A stretch of 41,855 nucleotides of DNA, taken from contig NZ_FMHW01000004.1 in NCBI RefSeq assembly GCF_900090325.1, forward strand, positions 1 to 41,855, written 5' to 3'. The DNA is from Micromonospora pallida (lineage in GTDB: Bacteria; Actinomycetota; Actinomycetes; Mycobacteriales; Micromonosporaceae). The notes under the pieces were generated by a model, which was not told where the DNA came from, did not search any database, and saw nothing but the letters and a program-made list of their open reading frames with translations. The translations under genes were made by a program, and so were the position numbers. Shown one piece after another: positions 9,943 through 33,691 of this stretch (positions are counted from its first letter, which is position 1; every line of letters starts with the position of its first letter).

Positions 9943-11240
9943 CCGGCCATCTCCATCTCGCGCTGCGCGGGCGGGGTCTGCTGGGCGATGAACGACTCGG
10001 TCCGCTCGATCACCCGGGCCACCTCGTCGTCCGTGAGGTCGTTGGTGCTGCCGACCGGCCGGTTGGCGATGTCGCTGACGTACGCCAGGCGCTCGTCCCG
10101 GTCGGTGATGTCGGCCTGGCCGAGGAGGGCGAACATCTTCCGGCGCTGCGGGTCGTTGCCCGGGTTCTTCGCCGGCGGGAACAACTCGTTCTTCCGGGCC
10201 TTCCACCGGCCCTGGATGTGCTCGGCCTCGGCCGGGCTGATCCGGCCCTCGTTGACCGCCTCGCCGGCGGCCCGCCACACCCGGCGGAGCCCGGTCTCGT
10301 CGCTGGCCTGCGCCAGGTCGTGAAGCAGACCGGTGGCGGCCGCGGAGAGGGCAGCGGGCGGCCCGGAGGTCGGCCGGTTGGCCGGCGGCCCGGACACGGG
10401 ACGGTCGTCGTCCGGCTCGGCCGGCTGCATCGCGACCAGGTCCCGGACGTGCGCCTCGGCCGGCGCGCATTGCAGCGTGTCGAAGACGATGTTCTCGACC
10501 GTCCAGTTCCGCGCCAGCTCGATCGGGTCGTCGTAGCCGGGCCGGATACCGACGTGCACCGACCGGACACCGATCACCGTGCCCGGCTTCGACCGGTCCA
10601 GCCGGATCCAGCACGACACGTCGAAGCCGAGCGTCTTGTGGCCCTCGACCCGGTACTCGCGCTGACGCTCGATCGGCTTGCCGGCGTCGTCGAGGGCGGC
10701 TACCTCCTTGCCGCGGGCCGTCAGCAGGACGATGCCCGGGAAGGTCATCAGGGTGGTCATCAGCTTGCGGTGGCGGGCACCGGCCTCGTTCCACAGGTCC
10801 ATCGAGATCTTCGGCTCTTCGTCCGGGCCGAGGGGCTTCGCGTTGTACTTCCGGACCTTGACCTCGTGGCGGCGGCGGGCCTTGTCGGAGGCCCAGTCCT
10901 TGAGCAGGTCCCACTCGGCGGTCATCGAGTCGATGACCAGCACCACCGGCGGTTCACCGGCGGCGGCCGCGCGGGCGGCCTCGGCCTTGACGGCGTCGAC
11001 AGCGCCCTGGATCTGCGCCCAGGTGCCGTTGTGCTCGACGACCAGGTAGTTCGCGCCGGGGATGGCGCCGTACTCGTCGGCGGCTCCCTCGCCGAGGTCG
11101 ATCCAGTACATCTGGCCGATCCGCGGGGAGGTGGAGAACTGGGCGCAGGCCCAGGACTTGCCGGACTTCTCGCCGCCCTCGATGAGGATGAGCGGCCACG
11201 GGACACGGCCGGTCGGGCGGCGGGTCTTCAGGGTGGTCAT
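9939..11240 (-). CDS. Sak4-like RecA-fold ATPase (single-strand annealing/recombination)
   Basis: 433 residues, ATG at 11240 (ATGA overlap). Walker A GGEKSGKSWACAQF lies near residue 22, the Walker B strand VVLVIDSMTAEWD near 106, and TARGKEVAALDDAGKPIERQ further on, all as in the AAA_24/Sak4 family of phage recombinases. The second half (from about 270) is an extra helical domain with a Pro/Ala linker, and the C-terminal SNDLTDDEVARVIERTESFI-like region may contact other replication proteins. It is intact and sits beside the helicase, so the two probably act together. A RecA-type name would be too specific. Confidence 0.75.
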   Translation of the reverse strand: MTTLKTRRPTGRVPWPLILIEGGEKSGKSWACAQFSTSPRIGQMYWIDLGEGAADEYGAIPGANYLVVEHNGTWAQIQGAVDAVKAEAARAAAAGEPPVVLVIDSMTAEWDLLKDWASDKARRRHEVKVRKYNAKPLGPDEEPKISMDLWNEAGARHRKLMTTLMTFPGIVLLTARGKEVAALDDAGKPIERQREYRVEGHKTLGFDVSCWIRLDRSKPGTVIGVRSVHVGIRPGYDDPIELARNWTVENIVFDTLQCAPAEAHVRDLVAMQPAEPDDDRPVSGPPANRPTSGPPAALSAAATGLLHDLAQASDETGLRRVWRAAGEAVNEGRISPAEAEHIQGRWKARKNELFPPAKNPGNDPQRRKMFALLGQADITDRDERLAYVSDIANRPVGSTNDLTDDEVARVIERTESFIAQQTPPAQREMEMAG

Positions 11241-14074: not shown

Positions 14075-14476
14075 ATGAGCGAACGGGGTGTTGCCTACGC
14101 CTTCTGGCTGCGAGTGCGGTCCGAGCAGGCCACGCGCGGCTGGACGGACGACGAGCTGAAAGAACGCTCGGGCATCGCCCGTACCACCATCGACCGCCTC
14201 GCCAAGGGCAAGCGGCCACCGCTTGCCCGGGTCGTTAACTCCCTCGCCAAGGCGCTCGACATCGACAACGACGAGGCGCACCGGCTCGCCGGCCGACTAC
14301 CCGGAGAACCGGACCAGGCCGAGGGCGAGCCGTCCCCGGCGGAACGCCGGATCAGCGCCCGCGAAGCCGTCCTGAACGACCCAGACCTCAACGACCAGCA
14401 GAGGGCGGTCATCCTCGGCGTGATCGACCTGATCACCGGAGGCGGCGGCGAGGATCAGGGGCGCCAGGCGTCCTAA
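14075..14476 (+). CDS. XRE-family repressor (probable immunity repressor)
   Basis: 133 residues from ATG 14075. The HTH covers about residues 8-65 (WLRVRSEQATRGWTDDELKE, RSGIARTTIDRLAKGKRPPL, VVNSLAKALDIDNDEAHRLA), the classical Cro/CI-like fold. The C-terminal part is short, with no protease domain, so induction would not be by RecA-type autocleavage. It is transcribed opposite to the early operon across an operator-like region, which is the position expected of a lysogeny repressor. No ribosome site is visible before 14075; a leaderless mRNA is likely. It converges on the integrase gene with a four-base overlap. Confidence 0.75.
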   Translation: MSERGVAYAFWLRVRSEQATRGWTDDELKERSGIARTTIDRLAKGKRPPLARVVNSLAKALDIDNDEAHRLAGRLPGEPDQAEGEPSPAERRISAREAVLNDPDLNDQQRAVILGVIDLITGGGGEDQGRQAS

Positions 14477-15810
14477 TCCGGTCGCGCCGACTTACGAGCG
14501 TCCGCCACCGCGTCCACCGCAGCGTCGATCGCCTGCGGCATCAGGTCCCCGTAGATCTCGCTCGTCGTGGCGAGCTGCTGGTGACCAAGCAGCCGCGAGA
14601 TGGCCAGGGGAGTCATCCGGGGGTCGCTGAAGAGCCAGCTCGCGTACGTGTGCCGTAGGTCGTGCCACGACGGCGCGGAGTGCAGCACGGTGGGACAGTC
14701 GCAGTCCGACACCGATCCGACCCGGGGGCCGTAGTGCGCCGCGCACCGCGTCGTGTCGTCGACAACCCGGGCGCCACACGGCTGCCCCGCCCACGTCGTA
14801 CCGCCGTAGTCTCGGCACCGACCGCGCGCGCCCTCCAGGCGCTCACCCTCGCCGGTCGGTGGGTGAGTGGGGCAGAGACGGGCCCGGAGAAGGGCCGGCT
14901 TCCACGCCTGGTCGTACATCCGGTCGTAGTCCAGGGCACCCTTGTCATCCCGGAAGATAAGCGTCTCTGGCGGCTGCCCCTCGACGAGTTTGGTGAGTGT
15001 GCGGTAGAGGTCGTCGCCGATTGGAAGAACTCGCTTGGCCCGGCCCTTCGTCGTGCCCAAGTACCGCTTGCCGCTTGCCTCCTTCCACGCCCGCCAGACC
15101 CTCAACCTCGGCCCCGAGGAATCAGTGGCCGGCACGAGGTGCATTGCGGCCAAGGCGGTCACTTCCGACCAGCGGAGCCCGGTTTCGACGATGCAATCCA
15201 GCAGCGAATGCCACTGCTTGGCAAACTGGGCACGCAGCAGCTCGAACTGCTGCGGCGTCAGGTAGACCGCGTGGTGCTCACCGGTGTCGTCGTCGGCCCG
15301 TTGATCCCGGATGAAGTCTGTGCCGTGGCACGGGTTCACGCTGATGTGCCCGTGGCGCATGGCAGCGGTGAGCGCGGTGTGCAGCAGCGAGTAGTAGCGG
15401 GTCACCGTCTTCTGGCTCATCCCGCTGGCGCGTAGTTCGTTTAGCCAGGTGCCGATAGCGACCGACGTGAGCTGAGGCAGGGGAGTGTCGCCGAAGGCGG
15501 GGTATATTCTGTCGCGGAGCTGTTGTTCGTACCGCTCTCGCGTTCCAGGTGAGATGCGAGTCTTCGACGGTAGCCATTCCTCGCACCACTGTTTCAGAGT
15601 GATGCCATCATCGGCAGGGGAATTGGAATCCCCCGTGGGAATGCCCATATCCGTGTACACGCGGTCGGCGGTGATGCGCCCTCGGTGGCCCTCGACGATC
15701 GATTTCGCCTCGTTGGCGTATTCCTCGGCAGGCCACGAGGTGTACTGCTTCTGGCCGTCGTACCGCCAGACGACCCGCCAGGAGTCCCCTCGTCGCTCGA
15801 TGCTCGCCAT
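14473..15810 (-). CDS. int: Tyrosine-type site-specific integrase
   Basis: 445 residues, ATG at 15810. The N-terminal arm-binding domain (RGDSWRVVWRYDGQKQYTSW) is followed by a SAM-like core-binding domain (EQQLRDRIYPAFGDTPLPQL). The catalytic residues are all visible: Arg in TGLRWSEVTAL, Lys in GTTKGRAKR, HxxR in HDLRHTYASWL, His in LLGHQQLATT and Tyr in SEIYGDLM. A Cys/His-rich insert (CPTHPP, RCRDYGG, CGARVV, CAAHYG, CDC) of about 65 residues lies just before the HxxR motif and could form a zinc site. The gene adjoins attP and should recombine it with a tRNA-Met gene. Confidence 0.93.
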   Translation of the reverse strand: MASIERRGDSWRVVWRYDGQKQYTSWPAEEYANEAKSIVEGHRGRITADRVYTDMGIPTGDSNSPADDGITLKQWCEEWLPSKTRISPGTRERYEQQLRDRIYPAFGDTPLPQLTSVAIGTWLNELRASGMSQKTVTRYYSLLHTALTAAMRHGHISVNPCHGTDFIRDQRADDDTGEHHAVYLTPQQFELLRAQFAKQWHSLLDCIVETGLRWSEVTALAAMHLVPATDSSGPRLRVWRAWKEASGKRYLGTTKGRAKRVLPIGDDLYRTLTKLVEGQPPETLIFRDDKGALDYDRMYDQAWKPALLRARLCPTHPPTGEGERLEGARGRCRDYGGTTWAGQPCGARVVDDTTRCAAHYGPRVGSVSDCDCPTVLHSAPSWHDLRHTYASWLFSDPRMTPLAISRLLGHQQLATTSEIYGDLMPQAIDAAVDAVADARKSARPD

Positions 15811-15946
15811 GGGGACAGATCATCGTCCCCATGGGGACACGGATCAAGCCTTACGGGTCCACTTGGGGTCGACAGAGTCACGGAACGCACAACATGAACC
15901 CGGACAATCTGTGTCACCGCAGCTCAGTATGGGGGTAGCCGATCGG

Positions 15947-15991
15947 CTCATAATCCCTCGGTCACGGGTTCGAGTCCCGTCCGCCCCACCA
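15947..15991 (+). other. attP: attP core: 3' half of a tRNA-Met(CAT) gene
   Basis: The 45 bases from the anticodon loop (CTCATAA, anticodon CAT) through the T-arm (GGTTCGAGTCC) and acceptor strand to CCA match an actinobacterial elongator tRNA-Met 3' half. The 5' half is not functional: the anticodon 5' stem and the acceptor partner GGGGCGG are missing. The sequence just upstream keeps a D-arm-like AGCTCAGT. This is the form expected of attP: integration would restore an intact tRNA with host 5' sequence. Only one such site exists in the window. Confidence 0.85.
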
Positions 15992-18061: not shown

Positions 18062-18073
18062 ATGGAGTACAGC

Positions 18074-18262: not shown

Positions 18263-18275
18263 CCTCAGCACCGCG

Positions 18276-18307: not shown

Positions 18308-18342
18308 CACCGTATCGCCTCAACGTCACCCCTGGAGGACCA

Positions 18343-19125: not shown

Positions 19126-19139
19126 CCCCAGGCACACCG

Positions 19140-19170
19140 CCGCCCCCGGACCGAGCACGGCCGGGGGCGG
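19140..19170. terminator. Bidirectional terminator between convergent genes
   Basis: CCGCCCCCGG-type stem: bases 19140-19149 pair with 19161-19170 (10 bp, 11-base loop). Placed between the phosphatase stop (19125) and the GntR/UTRA stop (19184), which read toward each other. Confidence 0.75.
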
Positions 19171-19183
19171 AACTCTGCGTGGG

Positions 19184-19963
19184 CTACAGGTCGATCACGT
19201 ACTCCAACTCGACCCGGTCACCCGGTAACACAATCTCCAGCGCGGTCTCGACCGGACGATCCCCGGCCAAGCTGATCCGGGTGATCGTCATGACCGGCAC
19301 TCGGTCGCCGATGGCCAGGATCCGCGCCTCCTCCTCGCTCGGCATCCGGGTGCGGGGCCGCTCGATGATCCGGGTCAGCCGAACGCCCAGCGACGCGAGC
19401 TGCGCGGTGTTGCCCCCGGGCCAGGGCTCCCGATCCGGATCAGCCACCGGCGTCCCGGCCACCATATCCAGCAGCAAGTACGAGGTGCTGATCTGCTGAG
19501 GCACGCCGTGGCTGCGGAAGACAAAGTGGCGGCGGAGCAGCGGCGTGCCGACGTCGACCTGGAGCAGCTCGGCGAGGCGCTCGTCGGCGCCGACCTCCGC
19601 GAAGTCCTTGTCCATCGAGAACGCGTCCCAGCCAATCCGCTGGTCGGCGGTGAAGCTCGTCGCCGGGCCGTCCGGGGTGCCGTCGCGCTGCTCGACCTCC
19701 ACGCGGTACCGCTCCGGACCGAGCCGGCGCACCGGCCAACGCGGACGCACGTGCGACCCCCGGTGACGTGCGGTCGAAATCAGGCCCTCCGCGCGGAGCA
19801 GGCCGATGGCCTCACGCACTGTGCCGCGGGCGACGTCCCACTCCTGCATCAGCTCCACCTCGGTGGGCAGCGGGGCTCCGGCAGGGAGCATCCCGGACTC
19901 GATGCGACGGCGCAGGTCGTCGGCGATCTGCCGGTACCGGGGCTGCTGTCGGGGTGGGGACAT
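19184..19963 (-). CDS. GntR/UTRA (HutC-type, KorSA-like) repressor
   Basis: 259 residues from ATG 19963; GTG 19972 is an alternative. The N-terminal GntR domain (RYRQIADDLRRRIESGMLPA, GAPLPTEVELMQEWDVARGT, VREAIGLLRAEGLISTARHR) is followed by a full UTRA effector domain (about 95-255: LLQVDVGTPLLRRHFVFRSH, RTRMPSEEEARILAIGDRVP, ETALEIVLPGDRVELEYVI). This architecture is that of KorSA, the transfer-control repressor of actinomycete integrative elements. It faces the SpdB-like operon across a GTCTAGAC operator and probably represses both itself and that operon. Confidence 0.85.
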   Translation of the reverse strand: MSPPRQQPRYRQIADDLRRRIESGMLPAGAPLPTEVELMQEWDVARGTVREAIGLLRAEGLISTARHRGSHVRPRWPVRRLGPERYRVEVEQRDGTPDGPATSFTADQRIGWDAFSMDKDFAEVGADERLAELLQVDVGTPLLRRHFVFRSHGVPQQISTSYLLLDMVAGTPVADPDREPWPGGNTAQLASLGVRLTRIIERPRTRMPSEEEARILAIGDRVPVMTITRISLAGDRPVETALEIVLPGDRVELEYVIDL

Positions 19964-20020
19964 GGCGATCACGGTACCGCCCTTGTCTGCATCTTCTGTC
20001 TGGACGCTGGCCCACAGAAA

Positions 20021-20049
20021 GTAACAGAGTTTCGTCTAGACTTATAGAC
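20021..20049. promoter_or_regulatory. HutC-type operator and promoter between GntR/UTRA and SpdB-like genes
   Basis: GTCTAGAC (20034-20041) fits the GT-N-TA-N-AC consensus of HutC-class GntR repressors and is the left part of GTCTA-N6-TAGAC (20034-20049). TAGACT (20037-20042) or TATAGA (20043-20048) could be the -10; GTAACA (20021) a weak -35. The gap 19973-20073 is AT-rich against its neighbours. Confidence 0.6.
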
Positions 20050-20073
20050 AGCACATAGGTAGCCTCGGACGCC

Positions 20074-21180
20074 ATGAGCACCGCGACCGATGCCCCCACC
20101 GGGGCGGCCACCCGCACCACCACGGTCGGAGCCCCCACCGTCATCGCCCTCTTGCTGATCGCCGGCGTCTGGGTGTGCGGCGCCGTCTGGTCCTACGAGG
20201 AGCAGACCCACCTCGCGAAGAGCCTCGGCTTCCAGACGCCCGAACTCCTGCCGCTCACCCTCGACGGCATGGCGGTGGCCATGGCCGCCGTCGCCTTCGC
20301 CGCGAGCCTCGACGCCAGGCCGGCGGTCTACGCCCGACTCATCACCGCCGTGGCCATCGGTGCCAGCGCGGCCAGCAACGCCAGCGCGGCATGGCGGCGG
20401 TCAGACGGTGACGAGCAGACCGTGATCCTCGCGGCCGGCGTCGCCGTGGCCGCGATGTTCGCCTTCGAGGTCCTGTTGGGTGAGGTGCGCCGGCAGGTGC
20501 TGCGCCGTCGTGGCCAGCCGGGGCCGGTGGCCATCGTCTACCCCCGGATGGTCCGGCTCGCCCTGGCTCCGTGGCCGACGTTCGCGGCGTGGCGGCGGCT
20601 GGTCCTGGACGCCACCGACCCGCAGCGCGACTTCGGCAAGCGGCCACCGATCAAGGCGACCGTGGTCGACGAATCTGACCCGGGCATCCAGCTCTGCCGG
20701 CAGCTCGAGCAGCAGATGGCCACCGCCCGTCAGGCTCTGTCTCCAGGTATTGCCCGGGTGGCTATGGCCGACCATGCCCTCACCCGGTGGCCGGCCACGA
20801 CCGCGCGCCCGGTTCCGGCCGTGGTCGCTCCGGAGCGCCGGGCGCTGTCGACCACGGCCGCGCCCGTCCCGACCACGGCGGTCGCCTCGGAGTCGACCAC
20901 CGTGGCGGCCACGAAGCCGGCCACGCGACGCCGCACCGTGGTCGCCCGGACCGACCACGCGCCGACCACGAAGACCACCCGGAAGGCGACCACGAAGACG
21001 GTCACGAAGTCGACCACGGCCGGCAGCGAGGCCGACCGTACGGCCGCCGCGTACGCCGCCTTCGTGGCCGACCACGGCCACCCGCCGTCCGGTGCCGAAC
21101 TGGCGACCATGGCCGGCGTCAGCAAGTCCTACGCCAACAACTGGAAGCGCGACCACGCGCCGGCCACGAAGGAGAACTGA
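20074..21180 (+). CDS. SpdB2-like DUF2637 membrane protein with C-terminal HTH
   Basis: 368 residues from ATG 20074. Four membrane segments in the first 135 residues (VIALLLIAGVWVCGAVWSYE, LPLTLDGMAVAMAAVAFAAS, LITAVAIGASAASNASAAWR, VILAAGVAVAAMFAFEVLLG) define the DUF2637/SpdB2 family, which assists spread of conjugative plasmids between Streptomyces hyphae. A long basic Thr/Ala/Pro linker (TTKTTRKATTKTVTKSTTAG) leads to a small HTH (AAYAAFVADHGHPPSGAELA, TMAGVSKSYANNWKR). In a phage it may help DNA move between mycelial compartments or act as a membrane-linked DNA binder. No TraB/FtsK translocase is present in the window. Confidence 0.8.
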   Translation: MSTATDAPTGAATRTTTVGAPTVIALLLIAGVWVCGAVWSYEEQTHLAKSLGFQTPELLPLTLDGMAVAMAAVAFAASLDARPAVYARLITAVAIGASAASNASAAWRRSDGDEQTVILAAGVAVAAMFAFEVLLGEVRRQVLRRRGQPGPVAIVYPRMVRLALAPWPTFAAWRRLVLDATDPQRDFGKRPPIKATVVDESDPGIQLCRQLEQQMATARQALSPGIARVAMADHALTRWPATTARPVPAVVAPERRALSTTAAPVPTTAVASESTTVAATKPATRRRTVVARTDHAPTTKTTRKATTKTVTKSTTAGSEADRTAAAYAAFVADHGHPPSGAELATMAGVSKSYANNWKRDHAPATKEN

Positions 21181-21182
21181 CC

Positions 21183-21347
21183 ATGCCGACGTCCGACATC
21201 GCCCGCCTGGAGCGCGAGCTCCTCGCCGCCCGCGGCAACCCGCAGCGGCACGCCGAGGTCCGGCAGAACATCCGCGAGGCCGGCCTGCCGCACCTCGCCG
21301 CCGAGCTGGACCGCATCGCCGCCACCGACCCGAGCCGGGAGGGCTGA
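21183..21347 (+). CDS. Small hypothetical protein, 54 residues
   Basis: ATG at 21183, two bases after the SpdB-like stop; GGAG lies upstream. MPTSDIARLERELLAARGNP and QRHAEVRQNIREAGLPHLAA predict two helices. It belongs to the same operon as the SpdB-like gene. Not recognised. Confidence 0.55.
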   Translation: MPTSDIARLERELLAARGNPQRHAEVRQNIREAGLPHLAAELDRIAATDPSREG

Positions 21348-21350
21348 CCG

Positions 21351-21506
21351 ATGCGACGCATCACCGCCCAGGTTCCGGCCGACAGCCGGGCCCGCGCGCT
21401 CGCCGGCCGACGGGTGACCCTGCCCGCTGGCACCGACGACGACCTCGTCCGCCGCGCCGACGAGCTGGCCGCCGTCGGCGCGACGCCCCGCATCACCACC
21501 CGATGA
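21351..21506 (+). CDS. Small hypothetical protein, 51 residues
   Basis: ATG at 21351 follows the previous stop by three bases, with GGAGGG upstream. MRRITAQVPADSRARALAGR, RVTLPAGTDDDLVRRADELA: basic start, acidic helix. Too short for family assignment. It lies within the SpdB-like operon. Confidence 0.5.
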   Translation: MRRITAQVPADSRARALAGRRVTLPAGTDDDLVRRADELAAVGATPRITTR

Positions 21507-21509
21507 CGC

Positions 21510-21555
21510 CCCGGGGCGGCGGTCTCACCGACCAAAGCAGTTCCGCCGCCCCGGG
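21510..21555 (+). terminator. Intra-operon hairpin
   Basis: CCCGGGGCGGCGG (21510-21522) pairs with CCGCCGCCCCGGG (21543-21555), a perfect 13-bp stem with a 20-base loop, directly after the 51-residue ORF and 35 bases before the next start. It probably lowers expression of the downstream membrane genes. Confidence 0.6.
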
Positions 21556-21590
21556 CCCGACCTCCCACAGAGAGAGGCAGGACCTCCATC

Positions 21591-21839
21591 ATGACCGACC
21601 CGGCCCCGCCGCAGCGGTACCGGCTGCACATCTTCGACGGCGCGTACGAAGTGCTGCACAAGCGCATCTTCATCGTCACCCTCGACCTGACGCTTCCCGG
21701 CTACGAGGGCATCCTCGACCGGCACCTCCAGGCGCTCACCCGGGCCGCCCTCGCCGCCCACGAGCCGATGAGCGCACCCCGCCTCGAGGTGCGTGACGCG
21801 GTCACCGGCGCGCTCGTCCTCGACTGGTCGGGGGCCTGA
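21591..21839 (+). CDS. Hypothetical 82-residue protein
   Basis: ATG at 21591. MTDPAPPQRYRLHIFDGAYE, VLHKRIFIVTLDLTLPGYEG, ILDRHLQALTRAALAAHEPM, with a final beta-rich end (LEVRDAVTGALVLDWSG). A mixed alpha/beta small domain. Its stop touches the next GTG. Function unknown. Confidence 0.55.
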   Translation: MTDPAPPQRYRLHIFDGAYEVLHKRIFIVTLDLTLPGYEGILDRHLQALTRAALAAHEPMSAPRLEVRDAVTGALVLDWSGA

Positions 21840-21840
21840 C

Positions 21841-22368
21841 GTGGAACTCGCCCGCACCATGTCCCCCACGGCGGTCGCCATCCTGCTGCTGCTCGCCCTG
21901 GTCGTCGACTACATGTCGATCGGACCGAACAGCCTCCGGGATCGGCTGGCCTTCGTGATGGCCGTGCCCGCGATCCGCGAGGGCTTCGACCAGTCGCCGG
22001 CCGACCAGGCGACGGTCGCCGCCGCCGGCGGGCTCATCCAGAGCCTGCTCGACTCCACCGGTGGCGCCTACATCGCCGGGGCCTCGGTGAACGCCATCCT
22101 GGGCGTGCTCATCGGCCTGCTCTGGGTCTACACGATCGGGTGCATGCTGCCGGTCAAGACCGGTAAGAAGCTTGGCCGGTTCGCCACCCTGACCTGGCCC
22201 CAGTCCCCGCTCTACCGGCTCAACACCAAGATGTGGATCGTCGCCATCATCCTCGGGATGATGTCCGACCTGCCCGGCGGGCTGATCGGCGACGTCACCC
22301 GGTCGCTCGTCTCCATCGTCACCAGTCTCGTCGCCCCGATTCCGGGCCTTCTGTTCGGAGCTGCCTGA
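21841..22368 (+). CDS. Multi-pass membrane protein of the SpdB-like operon
   Basis: 175 residues from GTG 21841. Membrane segments: MSPTAVAILLLLALVVDYMS, AYIAGASVNAILGVLIGLLW, LNTKMWIVAIILGMMSDLPG and a C-terminal VSIVTSLVAPIPGLLFGA. Hydrophilic loop of about 45 residues between the first two (IREGFDQSPADQATVAAAGG). Its stop overlaps the next ATG (TGATG). Like SpdB proteins it may insert at sites of DNA transfer. No named family. Confidence 0.6.
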   Translation: MELARTMSPTAVAILLLLALVVDYMSIGPNSLRDRLAFVMAVPAIREGFDQSPADQATVAAAGGLIQSLLDSTGGAYIAGASVNAILGVLIGLLWVYTIGCMLPVKTGKKLGRFATLTWPQSPLYRLNTKMWIVAIILGMMSDLPGGLIGDVTRSLVSIVTSLVAPIPGLLFGAA

Positions 22369-22883
22369 TGCTGACCACCACGATCCTCGCCGCCGCCCAG
22401 GAGCCGGAGCGGGGCTGGGGCGGACCAATCGCTCTGTTCGCCGCGGTCGCCGCCTTCTACGTGATCATCTCCGTGCACCACCGTGTTCAGGAGGCCCGAG
22501 AGCGACGCGCGAACCCCTCCCCTACCCCACCAGGCAGGCGGGGTGTCAGTGACACTACGCAGGCCAGGACGGTGTCTGACACCGCTGACACCGAGCGTGA
22601 CACCGGCTGGTGGGGGCGGATCGCCACCATCGGCGGCAAGCGGGTCCGGGTCATCGAGGGCATCGTCGAGCACGTCGACGAGGCGGTCGACGTCGCCCTA
22701 GACGACGACGAGCCGGCCGAGGACGAGGAGGAGGCGATCGAGGACGTGGTCGACCGCCTGGAGTACCGGGGCGTCGCCTACTCCGAGATCGTCGCCACGC
22801 TGATGGCGGACTTCAAGGTCAGCGAGGCGACCGCCAAGAGGAGGATCCGGGACGCACGCGCCGCCCGGGAGCAGGTGTCGTAG
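22368..22883 (+). CDS. Membrane-anchored protein with acidic stretch and HTH-like end
   Basis: 171 residues from ATG 22368. One N-terminal membrane segment (IALFAAVAAFYVIISVHHRV), a Pro/Thr linker, a very acidic helix (VDEAVDVALDDDEPAEDEEE) and a C-terminal helix pair (YSEIVATLMADFKVSEATAK, RRIRDARAAREQVS) that resembles the HTH of regulators and of SpdB-type relatives. Last gene of the operon, followed by a strong terminator. It is probably a membrane-linked DNA-binding partner of the two proteins before it. Confidence 0.6.
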   Translation: MLTTTILAAAQEPERGWGGPIALFAAVAAFYVIISVHHRVQEARERRANPSPTPPGRRGVSDTTQARTVSDTADTERDTGWWGRIATIGGKRVRVIEGIVEHVDEAVDVALDDDEPAEDEEEAIEDVVDRLEYRGVAYSEIVATLMADFKVSEATAKRRIRDARAAREQVS

Positions 22884-22900
22884 CCAGCCCGGAGACGCGA

Positions 22901-22935
22901 GAGCGCCCCGCCACCTGACCGGTGGCGGGGCGCTC
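22901..22935 (+). terminator. Strong terminator of the SpdB-like operon
   Basis: GAGCGCCCCGCCACC (22901-22915) and GGTGGCGGGGCGCTC (22921-22935) form a perfect 15-bp stem with loop TGACC, 17 bases after the stop codon. This is the longest perfect hairpin I found in the window. Confidence 0.85.
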
Positions 22936-22967
22936 GCTCATACCACGTCCCGCCCATGATCAGGCGG

Positions 22968-22995
22968 TTATCCACAGGACGCCCCGCTGTCCACA
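22968..22995 (+). other. Two DnaA-box-like sites in the gap before the CRISPR array
   Basis: TTATCCACA (22968-22976) is an exact DnaA box and CTGTCCACA (22987-22995) differs by one base from the actinobacterial form TTGTCCACA. Both have the same orientation, 19 bp apart. The gap 22936-23174 holds no credible gene. They could load host DnaA for replication, or be chance. The iterons at 5.8 kb are a competing origin. Confidence 0.5.
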
Positions 22996-23174
22996 GGCAG
23001 ACCGGACCCGCTGGACGGACCGGCCCCCGCCCGGCACGCTCACCACGTCGACGCGGCCACTCCGATCGGCGCCGGCCACACCTGCGGGCGGTGGGGCGCC
23101 GAGAACAGCAGGCCACCGACGTCCGGGCCCGGACAGCAAAGTGCCCGTCCTGTTCGCTAAAGGCGGGGCTACTC

Positions 23175-23229
23175 ACGTTAAAGTGAAGAGAAACTTGTTA
23201 TTTGATCTTTAGCTATCCAGGTCAGGAAG
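23175..23229 (+). promoter_or_regulatory. AT-rich CRISPR leader
   Basis: The 55 bases before the first repeat are only about 36% GC (counted by eye), in a genome of roughly 70%. They end in CAGGTCAGGAAG directly before the repeat, like leaders of actinobacterial type I-E arrays. A leader carries the array promoter and directs Cas1-Cas2 insertion at the first repeat. Confidence 0.7.
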
Positions 23230-23319
23230 GTGTTCCCCGCACACGCGGGGTTGATCCGTTCGCGATCGGATTGCAGGTCGGGTCGAGACCGTGTTCTCCG
23301 CACACGCGGGGGTGATCCA
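23230..23319 (+). CRISPR. Mini CRISPR array, type I-E: two 29-bp repeats and one 32-bp spacer
   Basis: Repeat 1 (23230-23258) starts GTGTTCCCCGC, has the stem-loop CCCCGC-ACAC-GCGGGG and ends TTGATCCG. The spacer is 23259-23290. Repeat 2 (23291-23319) matches at 26 of 29 positions. The 29+32 = 61-bp period, the hairpin and the handle are those of type I-E. Repeat 2 differs at positions 7 (C to T), 22 (T to G) and 29 (G to A); the first leaves a G-U pair, so the stem survives. No cas gene is present in the window, so processing would need host Cas6e/Cascade. A degenerate last repeat is usual at the leader-distal end and agrees with the leader on the left. Confidence 0.88.
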
Positions 23320-23334
23320 CTCACACGACGAAAC

Positions 23335-23366
23335 GGCCCCGCTATTCCACCCGGGAGAGCGGGGCC
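23335..23366. terminator. Terminator between CRISPR array and membrane-protein gene
   Basis: GGCCCCGCT (23335-23343) pairs with AGCGGGGCC (23358-23366). It lies 15 bases after the last repeat and 33 bases beyond the stop of the minus gene at 23399, so it can end both transcripts. Confidence 0.7.
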
Positions 23367-23398
23367 ATTGGCATTGGTCGGGCGGCTCCGAAGGGAAG

Positions 23399-23767
23399 TC
23401 AACGTCCCTCTGGGGAACTTCTCCGGCCACCAGCCGACGGCCGGCGACGCCTTGAGCTACGGCCGCCTGCTTTCGTGTCATCATCCTGCCGCTTGGCTGC
23501 GTTGTCGTTACGTGCCCTGAGAATTGCTGTCACGCCCATCTTCAGCATGACGCCCACTGCCAGGAAGGGAGCGACCGTCGCCGGCACGGCTCCTGCTACC
23601 AGCGCCGCTAGCTCCTTCGCGCCCACGGGATTCGTTTGGACGAACTCGGCAACGAAGCGGAGGTAGTAGTAGATGTACATGCAAGACAATGCGGTGACGG
23701 TCGCCAGCACCGCCAAGCCGAGAACGAAGAGACGCCTACCTGTAGCGAAGTAGTTGTCGTACAGCAT
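23399..23767 (-). CDS. Two-pass membrane protein with basic tail
   Basis: 122 residues from ATG 23767. Membrane segments LFVLGLAVLATVTALSCMYI and ALVAGAVPATVAPFLAVGVM flank a loop (FVQTNPVGAKEL); the C-terminal 40 residues are strongly basic and hydrophilic (NAAKRQDDDTKAGGRSSRRR). Base composition is lower in GC than the lysis genes, suggesting later gain. The ribosome site is poor. Its location beside the array and downstream of the lysis cluster fits an accessory (moron) gene, for example exclusion of other phages. Unproved. Confidence 0.55.
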   Translation of the reverse strand: MLYDNYFATGRRLFVLGLAVLATVTALSCMYIYYYLRFVAEFVQTNPVGAKELAALVAGAVPATVAPFLAVGVMLKMGVTAILRARNDNAAKRQDDDTKAGGRSSRRRRPSAGGRRSSPEGR

Positions 23768-23900
23768 CTTTTTGGGCCTTTCGCGGGGTTCGGTGGGGGT
23801 ACATGCAGAGTCGCCCTTTACCTGCCCGGCTGGGCCTTCTGCATACGCATGACCTTGCCGGACAACATGGGGGCAGCGCGTTGTCGGCAGGCACCAAACC

Positions 23901-23929
23901 GCACTAGAACCTTTGGAGAAAACCTACAA
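23901..23929 (-). promoter_or_regulatory. Weak promoter candidate for the membrane-protein gene
   Basis: On the minus strand, TTGTAG (rc of 23924-23929), a 17-base spacer and TAGTGC (rc of 23901-23906). The spacing is ideal, but both hexamers deviate from consensus. The surrounding gap 23768-24016 is gene-free except for a possible 16-codon ORF (MLSGKVMRMQKAQPGR). Confidence 0.3.
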
Positions 23930-23956
23930 AAGATCACTCCTCGGACATGACAAAAC

Positions 23957-23994
23957 ACGGCCCCGCCCTCCCCATCACGGGAGAGCGGGGCCGT
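23957..23994 (-). terminator. Terminator ending the late/lysis operon
   Basis: ACGGCCCCGC (23957-23966) pairs with GCGGGGCCGT (23985-23994), continued inside by CTCCC/GGGAG. It follows the holin-like gene stop at 24017 on the minus strand. Confidence 0.8.
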
Positions 23995-24016
23995 TGATGT
24001 TGGTCGGTACGCCCGG

Positions 24017-24259
24017 TCAGGGCTGGCCGAGGTCCGGACGCGGCGTGTGCCGCGCCAGGTACCCGCCGATCCCCGCCGCCAGCGCCGGCACCAGCGGCGC
24101 AACGAAGATTTCGACGGTGTCCGGCAGGTCCGTGATCAGGGTCGTGTCCGTGGTGCCGTTGACGATGGCCAGGCCCGCCAGGGCGAGCAGGTACGACCAT
24201 GCGGCCGACGCTTTCACCTTCTTCTCCATCGGGGCCGGGGTAGAGCTGCGCTGCGTCAC
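24017..24259 (-). CDS. Holin-like membrane protein
   Basis: 80 residues from GTG 24259, with GGAGG six bases upstream. Layout: charged start EKKVKASAAWSYL, membrane segment LLALAGLAIVNGTTD, second segment IFVAPLVPALAAGIGGYLAR and end ARHTPRPDLGQP. The K-A-S-A-W start and HTPR end are characteristic of a small actinophage holin group. It would form the membrane pore that lets the amidase reach the wall. Last gene of the lysis cassette. Confidence 0.7.
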   Translation of the reverse strand: MTQRSSTPAPMEKKVKASAAWSYLLALAGLAIVNGTTDTTLITDLPDTVEIFVAPLVPALAAGIGGYLARHTPRPDLGQP

Positions 24260-24282
24260 GGTGTACCTCCAGGTACGACGAG

Positions 24283-24304
24283 GCCCGGACCGCGCGGTCC
24301 GGGC
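24283..24304 (-). terminator. Palindromic hairpin between lysis genes
   Basis: GCCCGGACCGC followed directly by GCGGTCCGGGC is a perfect 22-bp palindrome, in the gap between genes ending at 24320 and starting at 24259. It may act as attenuator or RNA-stability hairpin that sets holin level. Confidence 0.55.
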
Positions 24305-24319
24305 AGGGGGATGGTCAGG

Positions 24320-24562
24320 TCAGGGCGGGCAGCCGAGGGACGAGCGGAGCTCGCCGATTTCCTGGGCGATGCGCCGGCCCCGGTCCGTCTCCGGCGGCGG
24401 GCTGCGGTCCGACAGCACGGTCAGCAGCTCACACCACCGGTGATCCGCCTCCTCCTGGGCGTGATGGGTGTACCAGATGCCTGTCCCCGCCACCGCCAGC
24501 GTGGACACGAGGATTGCGAGCAACGCGTACCAGAGCGGTACCGGTCGTCGATGCGGGCTCAC
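24320..24562 (-). CDS. Single-pass membrane protein of the lysis cassette
   Basis: 80 residues, GTG at 24562 in a GTGA overlap. One N-terminal membrane helix (PLWYALLAILVSTLAVAGTG) and a charged outer or periplasmic helix with two cysteines (EADHRWCELLTVLSDRSPPP, then LGCPP). The N-in topology with helical ectodomain recalls spanin- or Rz-like and holin-antagonist proteins, but actinobacteria lack the classical outer membrane, so a holin regulator is more likely. Confidence 0.55.
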   Translation of the reverse strand: MSPHRRPVPLWYALLAILVSTLAVAGTGIWYTHHAQEEADHRWCELLTVLSDRSPPPETDRGRRIAQEIGELRSSLGCPP

Positions 24563-24828
24563 CGGGGATCACCCGCCGACGGCGCGGACGACGGCAACGG
24601 CGAGGGCGGCGGCGGCTCCGGCGAGCCCGGCGCGGACGACAATCCGGTGCCCTGGGTATACCCAGCCAGCCAGAGGCGCAGGACGCCCGGCCCGGCCATC
24701 AGTGCGGCGCTGACCAGCAGCGGAGGCCATCCCGCCCCGGTCACCAGGGAGTGGGCGAACCCTGCCACCCCGGCGACGAGACAGGTGATGTCCCGCAGCC
24801 ACGGCACGCGCGTTTGCTGTGGCGTCAC
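24559..24828 (-). CDS. Putative second holin / lysis membrane protein
   Basis: 89 residues, GTG at 24828 overlapping the amidase stop. Hydrophobic stretches RDITCLVAGVAGFAHSLVTG and PPLLVSAALMAGPGVLRLWL, then a Pro/Ser-rich tail (GSPEPPPPSPLPSS). Small size, two membrane segments and coupling to the endolysin suggest a holin or anti-holin. It cannot be told from sequence which of the membrane proteins triggers lysis. Confidence 0.6.
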   Translation of the reverse strand: MTPQQTRVPWLRDITCLVAGVAGFAHSLVTGAGWPPLLVSAALMAGPGVLRLWLAGYTQGTGLSSAPGSPEPPPPSPLPSSAPSAGDPR

Positions 24829-25760
24829 TCACGTGCCTGGCCCTGGCCGGCGGTGGCGAGCAACTCGCCCATCCGTCGGAGCACCTCCGTGGCGTCGAGG
24901 GTGCCGTCCTGGCCCTGCTCGACGAGCGCGCGCAGCTCGGCGTCGCGGGCGGCCTCGGTTGCTGCCTGCTCGGCGAGCTGCCGGCGCGTCTGCTCGCCCT
25001 GCGCCTGGATCGCCTCGAGCACCTTCGCCTGGCTGCCGCCGGTCACCGCGGCAAGGATCGCCTCTTCGCGAACCCGCGCGTCCGCCAGCTCAGCCAGGAC
25101 CGAGTTCCGGGTCTGGAGAACGTAGTAGTTGGTGCTCGACAGCACGCCGGCCACGGTGGTGGTGGGTGAGCTGTATGCCACGCCCTTGCCTGTGACCAGC
25201 TTGATCGGGTCGGTCAGTTCCATCTCATCTCCGTTCATGGCGCGCTTGACCCTGTCCAGCAGGTGGTCCCAGGGGAAGTTGGGACCGGGGTCGGTGTGGC
25301 TGGTGCCGCCCCAGGCCAGCCGCATGTCGTTGTGCCCGTAGAAGGCCCGTACCTTGGGGTTGGCCTTCATTTCGGCCACGGTGGCCCGGCGGGGTGCGAT
25401 GTCGTACTCCCGGCAGACCACCGCCAGCACCTCGGCCAGGCGGTCCCACGCCACGTTGGCCAGCCACCACTGCCGGCTGGCCGACACCCGGCCAGTGATC
25501 TCCACCGAGATGCCGTTCTCGTTGCCGGTGCTCGACCCGGCATGGCCGGCGCGCGACCGGGTGTCCAGCGACTGGACGACCGAGTCCCCGTCGACGTAGA
25601 AGTGCGAGCCGACACCGTCGGTGCGGCGGGTGGCGTAGGACGCCTCCGCCTCGGCCGTGGCGGTGTTGTCGGTGGCGTGGATCGCGATGCCGAACTTCTG
25701 ACCGTCGCGGTCGTCGTAGGCATTGCGCCCCTGCTTGAAGGGGATTCCTGGGACCTTCAC
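24825..25760 (-). CDS. Endolysin: N-acetylmuramoyl-L-alanine amidase (amidase_2/PGRP-like)
   Basis: 311 residues from GTG 25760, in a GTGA overlap. The zinc amidase domain spans about 20-165: FGIAIHATDNTATAEAEASY (first His), SHFYVDGDSVVQSLD, AGHAGSSTGNENGISVEITG (second His and the NENGISVE strand) and FYGHNDM...TSHTDPGPNFPW (His and the HTDPGP motif). It cuts the bond between muramic acid and the peptide. The C-terminal 130 residues are a coiled coil (LAELADARVREEAILAAVTG, AQGEQTRRQLAEQAATEAAR), unusual in place of a wall-binding repeat. No signal peptide, so holin-dependent. Confidence 0.88.
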   Translation of the reverse strand: MKVPGIPFKQGRNAYDDRDGQKFGIAIHATDNTATAEAEASYATRRTDGVGSHFYVDGDSVVQSLDTRSRAGHAGSSTGNENGISVEITGRVSASRQWWLANVAWDRLAEVLAVVCREYDIAPRRATVAEMKANPKVRAFYGHNDMRLAWGGTSHTDPGPNFPWDHLLDRVKRAMNGDEMELTDPIKLVTGKGVAYSSPTTTVAGVLSSTNYYVLQTRNSVLAELADARVREEAILAAVTGGSQAKVLEAIQAQGEQTRRQLAEQAATEAARDAELRALVEQGQDGTLDATEVLRRMGELLATAGQGQARE

Positions 25761-25993
25761 GGCGTCTCCAGCGGGTGCAGGATCGCGATTTCCAACAGTT
25801 TCGGGTGCAGTGGCGCGTCGAGCAGGCTGATGTCCCATCCGGCGTCGATCCAGCCCTCGGGGATGCCGAGCTCGGCCCGGATGCGGTCCAGGTGCTGCTC
25901 GACCAACGGGTTCGGGTCGACGGCGATGCCGATCTCGTACAGGTGGATCTCGTCGCCGGTGGGCGTCCTGATCCGCAGGTACCACATGGTCAT
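25757..25993 (-). CDS. Small hypothetical tail-region protein
   Basis: 78 residues, coupled at both ends (ATGA/GTGA). MTMWYLRIRTPTGDEIHLYE, IGIAVDPNPLVEQHLDRIRA, ELGIPEGWIDAGWDISLLDA. Beta-rich start and helical middle, between the fibre gene and the endolysin. No known family; perhaps a fibre chaperone or minor tail component. Confidence 0.5.
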   Translation of the reverse strand: MTMWYLRIRTPTGDEIHLYEIGIAVDPNPLVEQHLDRIRAELGIPEGWIDAGWDISLLDAPLHPKLLEIAILHPLETP

Positions 25994-26550
25994 GACGCCA
26001 CCATCCGATCCCAGGTGACGCTCATCGCCGGCTGGTTGTCGGCGGTGACCGCCGTTCCGAGCGCTGCACCGGAGTCCTGCATCGCGTACAACTCAACGTA
26101 ATCACCGATGTCGAGGTATATGAGCGTCGTGCGGGCCACCACCGAGTTCACGTTGGCTCCGGCGGTGGACTGGATCAACACCTCGGTACCGAGGACGCTG
26201 GAGCCGTTGACCGCCCAGCGCACGCCGCGCCTGCCCGTCGTGTTGTTGGCCCAGCTAATGCCGCCCCCGCACAGATACAGGCCCGGGTAGCGAGCGGTAT
26301 ATCTGCTGGTGCTGCTCGACGTCGAGTGCCCGCCAATCCCGTCCAGATCGGTATCGAAGTCCTCGACGCCGAACAGCACCGCCGTCCACGTGCCGGACGT
26401 GAACGACTGAGTGACGGACTGCCGCACTTTCGCCGCTGGCTTCCGCATCAAAAAACGCAACGGATCGCGGACGTACGCGTTCAAATTCGTACTGTTGAGC
26501 GCGTCGATGCCGTTGGCCCACGCGGGTTTGGTTTCGGGTACGACGGGCAC
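25990..26550 (-). CDS. Putative tail fibre/receptor-binding protein with C1q-like fold
   Basis: 186 residues from GTG 26550. A short N-terminal anchor (ANGIDALNSTNLNAYVRDPL) precedes a beta-rich globular part: GTWTAVLFGVEDFDTDLDGI, RYTARYPGLYLCGGGISWAN, TGRRGVRWAVNGSSVLGTEV, TTLIYLDIGDYVELYAMQDS. The pattern ...PG.Y...G...W......R.....NG......D.V.L resembles the C1q/TNF-like heads seen on phage receptor-binding proteins. Place after the tail-tip gene supports host recognition. Confidence 0.65.
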   Translation of the reverse strand: MPVVPETKPAWANGIDALNSTNLNAYVRDPLRFLMRKPAAKVRQSVTQSFTSGTWTAVLFGVEDFDTDLDGIGGHSTSSSTSRYTARYPGLYLCGGGISWANNTTGRRGVRWAVNGSSVLGTEVLIQSTAGANVNSVVARTTLIYLDIGDYVELYAMQDSGAALGTAVTADNQPAMSVTWDRMVAS

Positions 26551-26561
26551 GGTGTCTCCTT

Positions 26562-28532
26562 TCAGTAGGCGACGATCGCGGATTCGGCCACCATGTCGCC
26601 GACGACCGGGCAGGCCGGTGGTACGCCCGGCGACGGGCCCAGCAGCGGCGACGTGTTGAACTCGATGACCCGCACCCGGCCGGGGCCGATGGTGTGCCGG
26701 ATGCCCTGCACGATCAGGTGCGGCACGTCCTCCGGGCTCCCCGGCGGCATGCCGGTCAGCTCGATCCGGTCACCCACCCGCAGCGACAGCAGTTGCTGCC
26801 GCTCGGCGACGGTCCGCCGCAGCATGTTGATCCGGATCGACGGGCACCGTGTCCGCGGCTCCCCGTGCGCGGCCAGCGCCCAGGACGCGAGGTTGGCGGC
26901 GTCGTCGGCGATCGCGCTGGACAGCTCGTACGGCTGCCCGGTGACCCCGTACCGCGCTGCCCGGGACCGGTCAGACCGGCGCACGCTTCCCCCGCCGGCG
27001 ATGGTCACGGTCACGTCGGTAACCGGCCGGTCAGGCCGGTACCGAAGGTGCCGCCGGCTGATCCACCCCCACGGGATGGCCAGCGCGACCGGCTGGTTGT
27101 ACCGCTGGACGCGGGGGATCAGGGTGATCCGGCCGTCCCCGGCGGTGATCAGGGTGTCCTGGCCGCCCTGGGCGGCGGTCTTCAGCGCGGCTGCGGGGCT
27201 CACTCCCGCCAGCCGGGCCCGCTGTAGCGGGGTGCTCGCTGCGGCCGGGGCGTCCACCTCGGACGCGGGGATGCCCGCGTACCCAGCCAGGGTGACCACC
27301 CGCTCGGCCACCGTCTGCCGTTCCAGGCCCCGGTAGCCGTGGGCGTGCTGGGCCAGGTGGTCCGCCCGGGTCATCGTGGTCGCGTCCGGGCCTACCCGCA
27401 CCTGCACGTGGGCCAGCGCGCCAGACCAGCCGGTCCCGATCTCAAGGAGGGTGTACGACTGCGCGCCCGGGGTGGTGAAGGTCTGCGACGCGGTCGCGTC
27501 CGCGCCGACCCACAGTTCGTGCAAGCCGGTCGCCAGGTTGAAGCGGGCGGTGACCAGCCTCCACAGGTCGAACTCGTACGGGCGGCCGACGTCGATCGGC
27601 GACGACGCTGCCGACGGCCCGGGGTCCACGGTGCTGCCCGCGTAGAACAGGTCCGGGCCCGACATGCTGATCTGTCGGCGGGTAATCCGCAGGACGTGGC
27701 CCGTTGTTCCGCGCAGGCTGACCAGGAATCCGGCGGGTTCCTCGGACGTGGGAGCCATCTCGTACTCGCCCAGCCGCGCCCACACCGACACGGCGATGGT
27801 GTCCGTTGCCGACACCGTCAGTGGCAGCGGCGCCACGAGGGTCGCGTCGGCGAAGGCCGAGAGCCCGTCGACATCCCCGACCGGCGTCCACCTGGCGTAC
27901 CGCTGGTCGTCACCCGGCGGGCCTTCCGTGTCTGCTGGCCGGAGCAGGTCGTCCGGATCCGCGAGCACCTGGGCGCTGGACCAGCCGAACGGGACCCGCT
28001 CCGTGGTGGTGCCGGTGGGGATGGACAGGTACCGGCCATCCGAGGGGCTATCCGACAACGGGAACCACTCGACGAGCTGCCCTCCGTGCGCCCGGATGTG
28101 CTCGGCGAGGGTGCCCTCGAAGGCCGGCGCCGACTCCAGGCGGCCCAGCCGATCCACCGCCGTCACCCGCACCGGCTGCGAGCTGCGCGAATCCACGATC
28201 GGCATGTCCGGGATCTCGAGGTAGCCGGTGCCGAGGAGATACTCCACCCCGCCGACCGTCTCGGCGATCTGCACCCGCCGGCCTTGCTCCCACCGCCCGT
28301 AGTACGGGCTGGCCGGATTCCTCGGCGTGAACAGGTTGTCGCCGTTCTTCAGCGCCCAGCCCATCTCGGTGGGCCTGATTTCCGCAGTCTCGTCCTGCCG
28401 GCCGATCGTGACCTCCACGGCCTGGCCGCCGTCGCCGTAGTGCACCCGGTCCGTGATGTCCGTGTAGACCAGGGCCGGATCGTCCGGGTCATGGTCCAGG
28501 CCCACGCGCACGCTGATAGTCGGGTCCGCCAC
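26562..28532 (-). CDS. Minor tail (tail-tip) protein
   Basis: 656 residues from GTG 28532 (GGAGGGG upstream). The start DPTISVRVGLDHDPDDPALV, YTDITDRVHYGDGGQAVEVT, IGRQDETAEIRPTEMGWALK, NGDNLFTPRNPASPYYGRWE is typical of actinophage tail-tip proteins that follow the tape measure (Dit/Tal-like). A laminin/LamG-like beta sandwich lies near 260-370 (GLHELWVGADATASQTFTTP), and the C-terminal half carries further hub-like domains. It forms the baseplate hub or host-adsorption platform. Frame intact. Confidence 0.75.
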   Translation of the reverse strand: MADPTISVRVGLDHDPDDPALVYTDITDRVHYGDGGQAVEVTIGRQDETAEIRPTEMGWALKNGDNLFTPRNPASPYYGRWEQGRRVQIAETVGGVEYLLGTGYLEIPDMPIVDSRSSQPVRVTAVDRLGRLESAPAFEGTLAEHIRAHGGQLVEWFPLSDSPSDGRYLSIPTGTTTERVPFGWSSAQVLADPDDLLRPADTEGPPGDDQRYARWTPVGDVDGLSAFADATLVAPLPLTVSATDTIAVSVWARLGEYEMAPTSEEPAGFLVSLRGTTGHVLRITRRQISMSGPDLFYAGSTVDPGPSAASSPIDVGRPYEFDLWRLVTARFNLATGLHELWVGADATASQTFTTPGAQSYTLLEIGTGWSGALAHVQVRVGPDATTMTRADHLAQHAHGYRGLERQTVAERVVTLAGYAGIPASEVDAPAAASTPLQRARLAGVSPAAALKTAAQGGQDTLITAGDGRITLIPRVQRYNQPVALAIPWGWISRRHLRYRPDRPVTDVTVTIAGGGSVRRSDRSRAARYGVTGQPYELSSAIADDAANLASWALAAHGEPRTRCPSIRINMLRRTVAERQQLLSLRVGDRIELTGMPPGSPEDVPHLIVQGIRHTIGPGRVRVIEFNTSPLLGPSPGVPPACPVVGDMVAESAIVAY

Positions 28533-28545
28533 TGCCCCTCCGCGC

Positions 28546-32984: not shown

Positions 32985-33340
32985 CAGGGGCCGCCCAGGG
33001 GCTTGCCGGCGGCCTTCGCGATCAGCGCCAGCATCACGTCGCGCTCGGTGCCCATCGGCTCCTCCAGGTACTTCGCCTGCCGCCCGTCGTCGTGCCGCAG
33101 GGTCATGTCCTCGTGCTGACGAACGGCGTAGGACCGGTCAAAGCTGACCGCGACCAGGCCAGACGCCCGGTCGGAGCTGACCTCACCGGACCGCTCCAGG
33201 TCGCCCTCCTCGTGCGGGGCGAGGCCACTGGACACCTGGAGCAGATGCTCGGCGGCCAGCTCGGAGCCGTCGAAGGAGGCGTCAGACATCAGCGCGAGCA
33301 CCTTGTCGCCGTCCCAGTCGAGGCGGAACTCGTCGGCCAT
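32984..33340 (-). CDS. Tail completion / neck protein (HK97 gp10-like)
   Basis: 118 residues from ATG 33340. MADEFRLDWDGDKVLALMSD, ELAAEHLLQVSSGLAPHEEG, DLERSGEVSSDRASGLVAVS, FDRSYAVRQHEDMTLRHDDG, RQAKYLEEPMGTERD. The YA.rQHE....H..G..AKYLE stretch is diagnostic of gp10-like minor capsid/neck proteins. Third connector in the head-to-tail order. Confidence 0.75.
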   Translation of the reverse strand: MADEFRLDWDGDKVLALMSDASFDGSELAAEHLLQVSSGLAPHEEGDLERSGEVSSDRASGLVAVSFDRSYAVRQHEDMTLRHDDGRQAKYLEEPMGTERDVMLALIAKAAGKPLGGP

Positions 33341-33343
33341 GGG

Positions 33344-33691
33344 TCACTCCAGGGACAGCTCGACGTGCTCGGGCAGGCCGAGCCCGTGGTCCTCCATCAC
33401 GCTGACGGCGAGCACCTTGGCGGTGCGGCCGGTCCACGGCAGGGTGACCAGGCTGGACGGCGGGGCGACCGTGGCCATCGGCGCGAACACCGTGGTGGAG
33501 GAGACGCCCTCAGCGCCCTCGGCGTCCTGGGTCTGCACGACGACCCGGCGGGTGGTGTCGTCGACGACGCACGGGCCCACGTCGACGGGGTCGGCGTACA
33601 CGTCGCCGTACGCGCCGGAGCCCTCGTACGCCTGCACCTGCACCGTCCGGGGCTCCGGGATGTGCAGCTCGATGAACTCTTCCCACGTCAC
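33344..33691 (-). CDS. Head-tail stopper-like protein
   Basis: 115 residues from GTG 33691. HIPEPRTVQVQAYEGSGAYG, PVDVGPCVVDDTTRRVVVQT, SSTTVFAPMATVAPPSSLVT, LPWTGRTAKVLAVSVMEDHG, ending LPEHVELSLE: a small beta barrel like phage stopper proteins that close the head channel. Position between adaptor and neck protein agrees. Confidence 0.7.
   Translation of the reverse strand: MTWEEFIELHIPEPRTVQVQAYEGSGAYGDVYADPVDVGPCVVDDTTRRVVVQTQDAEGAEGVSSTTVFAPMATVAPPSSLVTLPWTGRTAKVLAVSVMEDHGLGLPEHVELSLE

Follow-up and report, generated by a model that had tools for sequence, protein, structure and literature searches.

The phage element and its mini-array

The window, the whole stretch of 41,855 nt of Micromonospora pallida DNA analysed here, is contig C4 of an assembly of 7.76 Mb in four contigs. 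The same ~1.64 kb stands at both of its ends, from which a circle of ~40.2 kb follows. The element is also integrated in the chromosome, where contig C2 carries window positions 15947-33619 near its end and 6136-15991 near its start, and the rest of the element is present once more in contig C1. These copies indicate that the phage is present as both a circle and a prophage at a tRNA-Met gene. When ten window proteins were compared with PHROGs, portal, head morphogenesis, terminase large subunit, major head, head-tail connector, tape measure, endolysin and integrase proteins were among those recognised, in agreement with the original prediction that the locus is phage-borne. Judged by its genes, the element is a temperate phage with a tail that looks complete and is probably of the siphophage type. 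Close relatives of the major head protein occur in Actinoplanes, Streptosporangium and other actinobacteria (among the best 120 of 4951 matches), and PADLOC returned no match for ten window proteins. The features lie as follows in window coordinates.

14473..15810, - strand: tyrosine integrase (PHROG integrase family, E = 2.2e-51)
15947..15991, + strand: attachment core, 45 b common to window and chromosome, 3' part of the tRNA-Met gene
22939..23146, + strand: intergenic block, shared partly or wholly with array-less genus loci (L084, L091, L092, L095, L099, L105 and contig C3 = L010)
23177..23229, + strand: type I-E CRISPR leader core abutting repeat 1 (nhmmer profile; pattern TTGATCTTTAGCNNNNCAGGTCAGGAAG)
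23230..23257, + strand: CRISPR repeat 1, 28 nt (29 nt if the next G is counted), GTGTTCCCCGCACACGCGGGGTTGATCC, hairpin CCCCGC-ACAC-GCGGGG
23258..23290, + strand: single spacer, 33 nt (32 nt, 23259-23290, by the 29-nt repeat convention)
23291..23318, + strand: CRISPR repeat 2, distal, GTGTTCTCCGCACACGCGGGGGTGATCC, one stem change, G-U pair still possible
23332..23369, + strand: GC-rich hairpin 3' of the array, terminator-like without a T run (inverted repeat I6, 82% complementary)

Across 22900-23500 (601 b) the integrated copy in C2 is identical to the window, while elsewhere the copies of the element in the assembly differ by many indels (201 gap openings over 17.7 kb). Two further genes, encoding a DUF2637 protein (20074-21180) and a GntR-UTRA regulator (19184-19972), are plasmid-like genes within the phage; the DUF2637 protein is of a kind that occurs in actinobacterial integrative elements and plasmids. 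In contig C3 (64.8 kb; L010, L012-L014) the same two window-like stretches appear twice, offset by ~35.4 kb, and C3 is possibly a 35.4-kb circular plasmid assembled nearly twice.

Repeats, leader and probable insertion site

The original prediction had placed at this site two repeats with the I-E stem, in an exact 61-b period enclosing one spacer. Period and spacer were confirmed, the repeats starting 61 b apart and being identical at 26 of 28 positions. The stem held for repeat 1; in repeat 2 it reads CTCCGC-ACAC-GCGGGG instead, so that the changed pair becomes G-U. The predicted RNA hairpin is nevertheless kept in repeat 2 (-10.2 vs -12.3 kcal/mol), but the advantage of each 29-mer over its own shuffles is just 1.1 to 1.7 sd, so folding alone is no proof. 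The pattern GTGTTCNCCGCACACGCGGGGNTGATCC, allowing at most one mismatch, occurred in one of 151 genomes and exclusively here (two element copies with two repeats each), with a control pattern giving 0 in every row; the lysogen's own genome was covered by an exact search as well. Rfam gave no match. The locus has the traits of a type I-E array (28-29-nt repeats, a CCCCGC-N4-GCGGGG hairpin and a period of ~61) and those of a virus-borne mini-array, in which one or two spacers stand between CRISPR repeats within a virus genome. The hairpin at 23332-23369 is part of the predicted fold, and a terminator scan, by the rule of that scan, identified no terminator, this hairpin included.

A leader, absent from the earlier description of the array, is present and is of the host type, as judged by homology. 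A profile built from 19 distinct I-E leaders of other genus genomes, with loci of the lysogen's genome excluded, had 23177-23229 as its sole match in the window (nhmmer, E = 6.6e-10), the last base adjoining repeat 1. In I-E arrays of the genus, repeat 1 is preceded by a conserved AAAGTGAA...TTGATCTTTAGC....CAGGTCAGGAAG; the pattern TTGATCTTTAGCNNNNCAGGTCAGGAAG, at no more than three mismatches, occurred in 34 of the 160 genomes of the genus (the lysogen's counted), against 0 in every row for the control pattern, and the phage leader fits it with 0 mismatches. Stretches around most pattern sites, together with earlier loci, gave 89 distinct leaders including that of the phage, whose nearest relative is identical to it at 42 of 53 positions. 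The stretch 23150-23229 is 43.8% GC, compared with 70.4% for the phage. A sigma-70 promoter scan found nothing. Exact leader patterns had 0 matches in IMG/VR, and matches in phage records were at most at chance level.

The genus-type leader thus lies directly 5' of repeat 1, with a junction of 4 instead of 5 nt. Among 86 leaders followed by a repeat, the gap from the leader motif to TCCCC was 5 nt in 82, 4 nt in two (the phage and L147), and 7 and 1 nt in one each. The 4-nt junction falls within a GG run and both copies agree on it; given this run and the many indels between assembly copies, the shorter junction may be a read error.

These results bear on whether the locus is CRISPR-derived at all. 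In a phage of 70% GC that has other GC-rich hairpins, such as that at 23332-23369, one might think of two hairpins arisen by chance or of a regulatory element (operator or terminator). The repeat pattern is unique here among 151 genomes, the leader control is 0 across 160, and leader and repeats stand in CRISPR order; the leader profile and pattern results argue strongly against such an origin, which we regard as extremely improbable.

The block at 22939-23146 is seen again, in part or whole, in six loci of the genus and, within the lysogen's genome, in contig C3, which is plasmid-like; no repeats were found in any of these. In three of them (L092, L095, L099) a GC-rich hairpin, seen by eye, directly follows the block, as the 23332-23369 hairpin follows the phage array. 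Seven related loci without an array suggest a small insert, the simplest reading being that ~180 b comprising leader and array entered a site which the other loci have empty. This recurrence of the upstream flank in array-less loci also speaks against the array being a fragment of a host array at a recombination junction, a circumstance that had been named as one that would undo the original prediction. When related contigs of viruses were sought by means of one tail-region protein, five pattern matches came up, none confirmed. The phage record MT835722.1 was rejected as a mini-array, its weak leader and repeat match being a long array of 27 repeats on an unverified fecal scaffold.

Spacer targets and I-E systems of the genus

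The original prediction held that the spacer has no match elsewhere in the window, and none was found at up to three mismatches in the whole genome of the lysogen, window included. It also supposed that the target is probably something outside, such as a rival phage or plasmid, for which no convincing match came to light in phage records, plasmid records, IMG/VR, 160 genus genomes or 300 family genomes. Searches by blastn of phage and plasmid records returned 11 and 15 records respectively, all with E >= 0.9 and taken as chance. Two exact 19-mers of the spacer had 0 matches in IMG/VR. Of two codon-degenerate spacer patterns tried, one gave 0 loci and the other six, which were rejected as targets (10 to 14 differences from the 33-nt spacer at the best places, and a GC content of 41-54% in five). 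In the overlapping sets of 160 genus and 300 family genomes the element itself alone was matched, and the nearest of 1727 congener spacers differs from the phage spacer at 14 positions. According to one review, ~10% of prokaryotic spacers match known sequences (PMC8616872), so the absent target says little and is not decisive.

In the opposite direction, the whole window was searched for matches to 1727 oriented spacers taken from 108 loci of congeners. Six matched the phage at no more than six mismatches, four of them at 1 to 4, while the reversed-spacer control gave 0 of 1727; at seven mismatches there was one reversed match against eight real ones. The four closest matches are the following.

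15874..15906, - strand: match of a spacer of congener G160, 32/33
10867..10899, - strand: match of a spacer of G195, 31/33, flank CAA then G
10431..10463, + strand: match of a spacer of G074, 30/33
33332..33364, + strand: match of a spacer of G198, 29/33

Their flanks, given as the last two flanking bases and the first base, are non-uniform (ATT, AAG, ATC, TCG), and hence no PAM is claimed. Six matches against none for reversed spacers indicate that arrays of the genus carry spacers against this phage or near relatives.

No cas1 or cas7e gene accompanies the array, in keeping with the predicted lack of cas genes: models for cas1 (TIGR03638) and cas7e (TIGR01869), the two families searched genome-wide, had no match in the whole genome, window included. 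The latter model recognised a congener Cas7e at 318.8 bits in a positive check. With neither cas1 nor cas7e, the lysogen shows no sign by these models of an I-E operon in the same genome, which disagrees with the idea that the phage borrows Cascade and Cas3 from the sequenced host, and the array is probably idle in this lysogen since no cas1 or I-E cas7 is detectable there. Short degenerate I-E arrays of the lysogen's own lie near C2:3752058 and C2:3892684. In loci L043 (~9940-10085) and L044 (~12200-12780) of this genome the I-E-like arrays are degenerate, one of them standing behind a leader-like sequence, and an I-E system seems to have been lost from the strain.

Other members of the genus do have such systems. 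With the cas1_ECOLI model, 24 of 121 genus genomes had matches at E <= 0.001 and 14 were above the cut-off. In eight of these 14 (L047-L052, L056, L057), TGATCC-type repeats and the leader type of the phage were seen by eye near cas1, the others having other I-E-like repeats in the regions fetched near cas1. In L050, from congener G061, cas3, cse1, cse2, cas7, cas5, cas6e and cas1 were recognised; in its operon (10777-13635, - strand), open frames resembling Cas5e and Cas6e occur twice each, one after another. By hand count, cas1 was above the cut-off in 11 of the 22 leader-bearing congeners covered by the cas1 search, so leaders are common without detected cas1.

As had been expected, the repeats resemble those of arrays in the genus, though not to the point of identity. 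Every one of 167 distinct genus repeats, sampled from 2436 copies with overlapping loci counted more than once, shows at least 2 differences in 28 positions to repeat 1 and at least 3 to repeat 2. I-E systems that have this leader type and repeats like those of the phage do exist in congeners; a lack of such systems in plausible hosts had been put forward as grounds for dismissing the array. Outside the family, GTGTTCCCCGCACACGCGGGGKTGATCC was found exactly in three GTDB records, one from a Glycomyces and two from MAGs of Dehalococcoidia and Burkholderiaceae. In L079, a 4.5-kb contig of a Burkholderiaceae MAG, a two-repeat array at 634-723 has as its first repeat the phage consensus repeat.

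Several of these findings would fit an inert remnant, a leader-repeat-spacer-repeat piece taken from a host array and now decaying. Two mismatches separate the repeats from each other, the junction falls short of the usual length by 1 nt, no target came to light, the lysogen is without cas1 and cas7e, and decay is common in the genus, where 88 other leader sites include three without a repeat and three with one. Set against this are a leader core intact at 0 mismatches, two preserved hairpins and a spacer that yields the usual period of 61 exactly, and we consider a remnant somewhat unlikely.

Known mini-arrays and the proposed function

Mini-arrays of bacteriophages and prophages were reportedly described by Faure et al. 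in 2019. The precedents in archaeal viruses and bacterial phages to which the original prediction appealed are indeed described in PMC6858448, PMC8616872 and PMC11656645. Those of the Saccharolobus portogloboviruses SPV1 and SPV2 bear leaders and have spacers against related viruses (PMC6858448). Like the phage array they have one or two spacers, host-like repeats, a host-like leader (promoter-bearing in SPV1/SPV2) and no recognised cas genes; they differ in belonging to archaeal viruses, in having other repeats and in having spacers that match related viruses, whereas the array described here is of type I-E, lies in a temperate phage with tail genes and has no target found. The mini-arrays known from bacteriophages and prophages, reviewed together with RNA anti-CRISPRs (Racrs) in PMC11656645 and PMC8616872, share the single spacer, host-like repeats and lack of cas genes (PMC6858448, PMC8616872, PMC11656645), but those of another study are said in PMC6858448 to be leaderless, unlike the array here, and spacer gain through recombination with host arrays was suggested for them. 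Compared with chromosomal I-E arrays of the genus, the leader motifs, the repeat hairpin, the TGATCC repeat end and the 61-b period are alike; the location in a phage, the single spacer, at least two differences per repeat and the junction shorter by 1 nt are not.

Among the literature matches listed, as far as titles and the openings of abstracts go (preprints and most subscription papers lying outside the coverage), none was a leader-bearing mini-array in a bacterial phage. On the sequence evidence, and within that literature, an I-E mini-array with a leader in a bacterial prophage differs from the phage mini-arrays in print; priority is not proven and the function is inferred. A host-type leader in a bacterial prophage makes both transcription from a CRISPR leader and spacer uptake by Cas1-Cas2 testable, and spacers that match this very phage are present in I-E arrays of the genus.

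Transcription from the leader, cutting by Cas6e and loading of Cascade are known steps of I-E biology. With about even confidence, we propose that the locus is a leader-led I-E mini-array whose crRNA loads host Cascade and is aimed at a competitor. The mini-array of this temperate actinophage would derive from an array of the host genus. In an I-E-positive host the leader would drive its transcription, and host Cas6e would cut at the repeat hairpins to give one crRNA with an intact-looking 5' handle, the spacer and a 3' hairpin, expected to be ~61 nt long and to start at its 5' end with UUGAUCCG. Host Cascade-Cas3 would then load and use this crRNA. With less certainty, the guide would be aimed at a competing phage or plasmid, which the prophage would thereby exclude. 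In the sequenced lysogen the array would presumably stay idle until the phage met another host. This reading is favoured by the leader homology, the kept hairpins, the I-E-positive congeners, the congener spacers matching the phage, the array-less related loci and the archaeal-virus precedent of leader-bearing mini-arrays with spacers against related viruses (PMC6858448); it is weakened by the lack of a protospacer match, of cas1 and cas7e in the lysogen and of a sigma-70 match, by the frequency of leaders without detected cas1 in congeners, by repeats at least 2/28 off and by the 4-nt junction.

A decoy would make different use of the same RNA, which would occupy Cas6e and Cascade with a non-targeting crRNA and so dilute the host crRNAs that target the phage. 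Racrs, RNA anti-CRISPRs that arise from solitary repeat units, include two of type I-E and inhibit immunity, and a non-targeting crRNA does likewise in type I-F (PMC10651486). Since congener spacers match the phage, an anti-I-E device would pay, and no target of the spacer was found in the collections searched, a weak argument where ~10% of prokaryotic spacers match known sequences (PMC8616872). The phage array and Racrs are alike as CRISPR repeat mimics in prophages without cas genes, but RacrIF1 is described as a solitary repeat unit giving an RNA without a 5' handle, while the phage has two repeats in register rather than a lone one, a spacer, a host-type leader and an intact-looking 5' handle (PMC10651486). 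A decoy seems to us unlikely.

The complete leader-repeat unit could alternatively be kept so that host Cas1-Cas2 write new spacers into the phage, either arming it against competitors that share its cell or diverting integration from the host array. We think this quite doubtful; if true, it would make the locus an acquisition platform or decoy integration site borne by a bacterial virus.

Other loci resembling mini-arrays were seen. Fourteen IMG/VR stretches matched the repeat pattern. At the same site in two members of one phage lineage, L075 (2597-2625) has one I-E-like repeat without a spacer and L078 (814-964) three repeats with two spacers, the flanks being 97% identical over 2.1 kb downstream and 90% over 0.8 kb upstream; spacer number is thus variable, as these sequences indicate, in the mini-array of this lineage. 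Further contigs with I-E-like repeats spaced at 61-62 b, between them one to three spacers and in some cases a degenerate repeat at the end, are L065/L071, L066/L074/L076, L068, L070, L072, L073 and L077. L067 and L069 were set aside as I-E-like arrays, their periods of 49-50 b pointing to what is probably something else. Among congeners, L185 (7370-7530, - strand) of G175 has a leader with a single spacer, the second repeat being degenerate; an integrase gene lies ~0.6 kb away, and the locus is possibly another mini-array of a mobile element. In L182 (7520-7590) of G055, a leader-like sequence and a single repeat with a 4-nt junction adjoin a type I restriction HsdR-like gene; this locus could be a solitary repeat unit.
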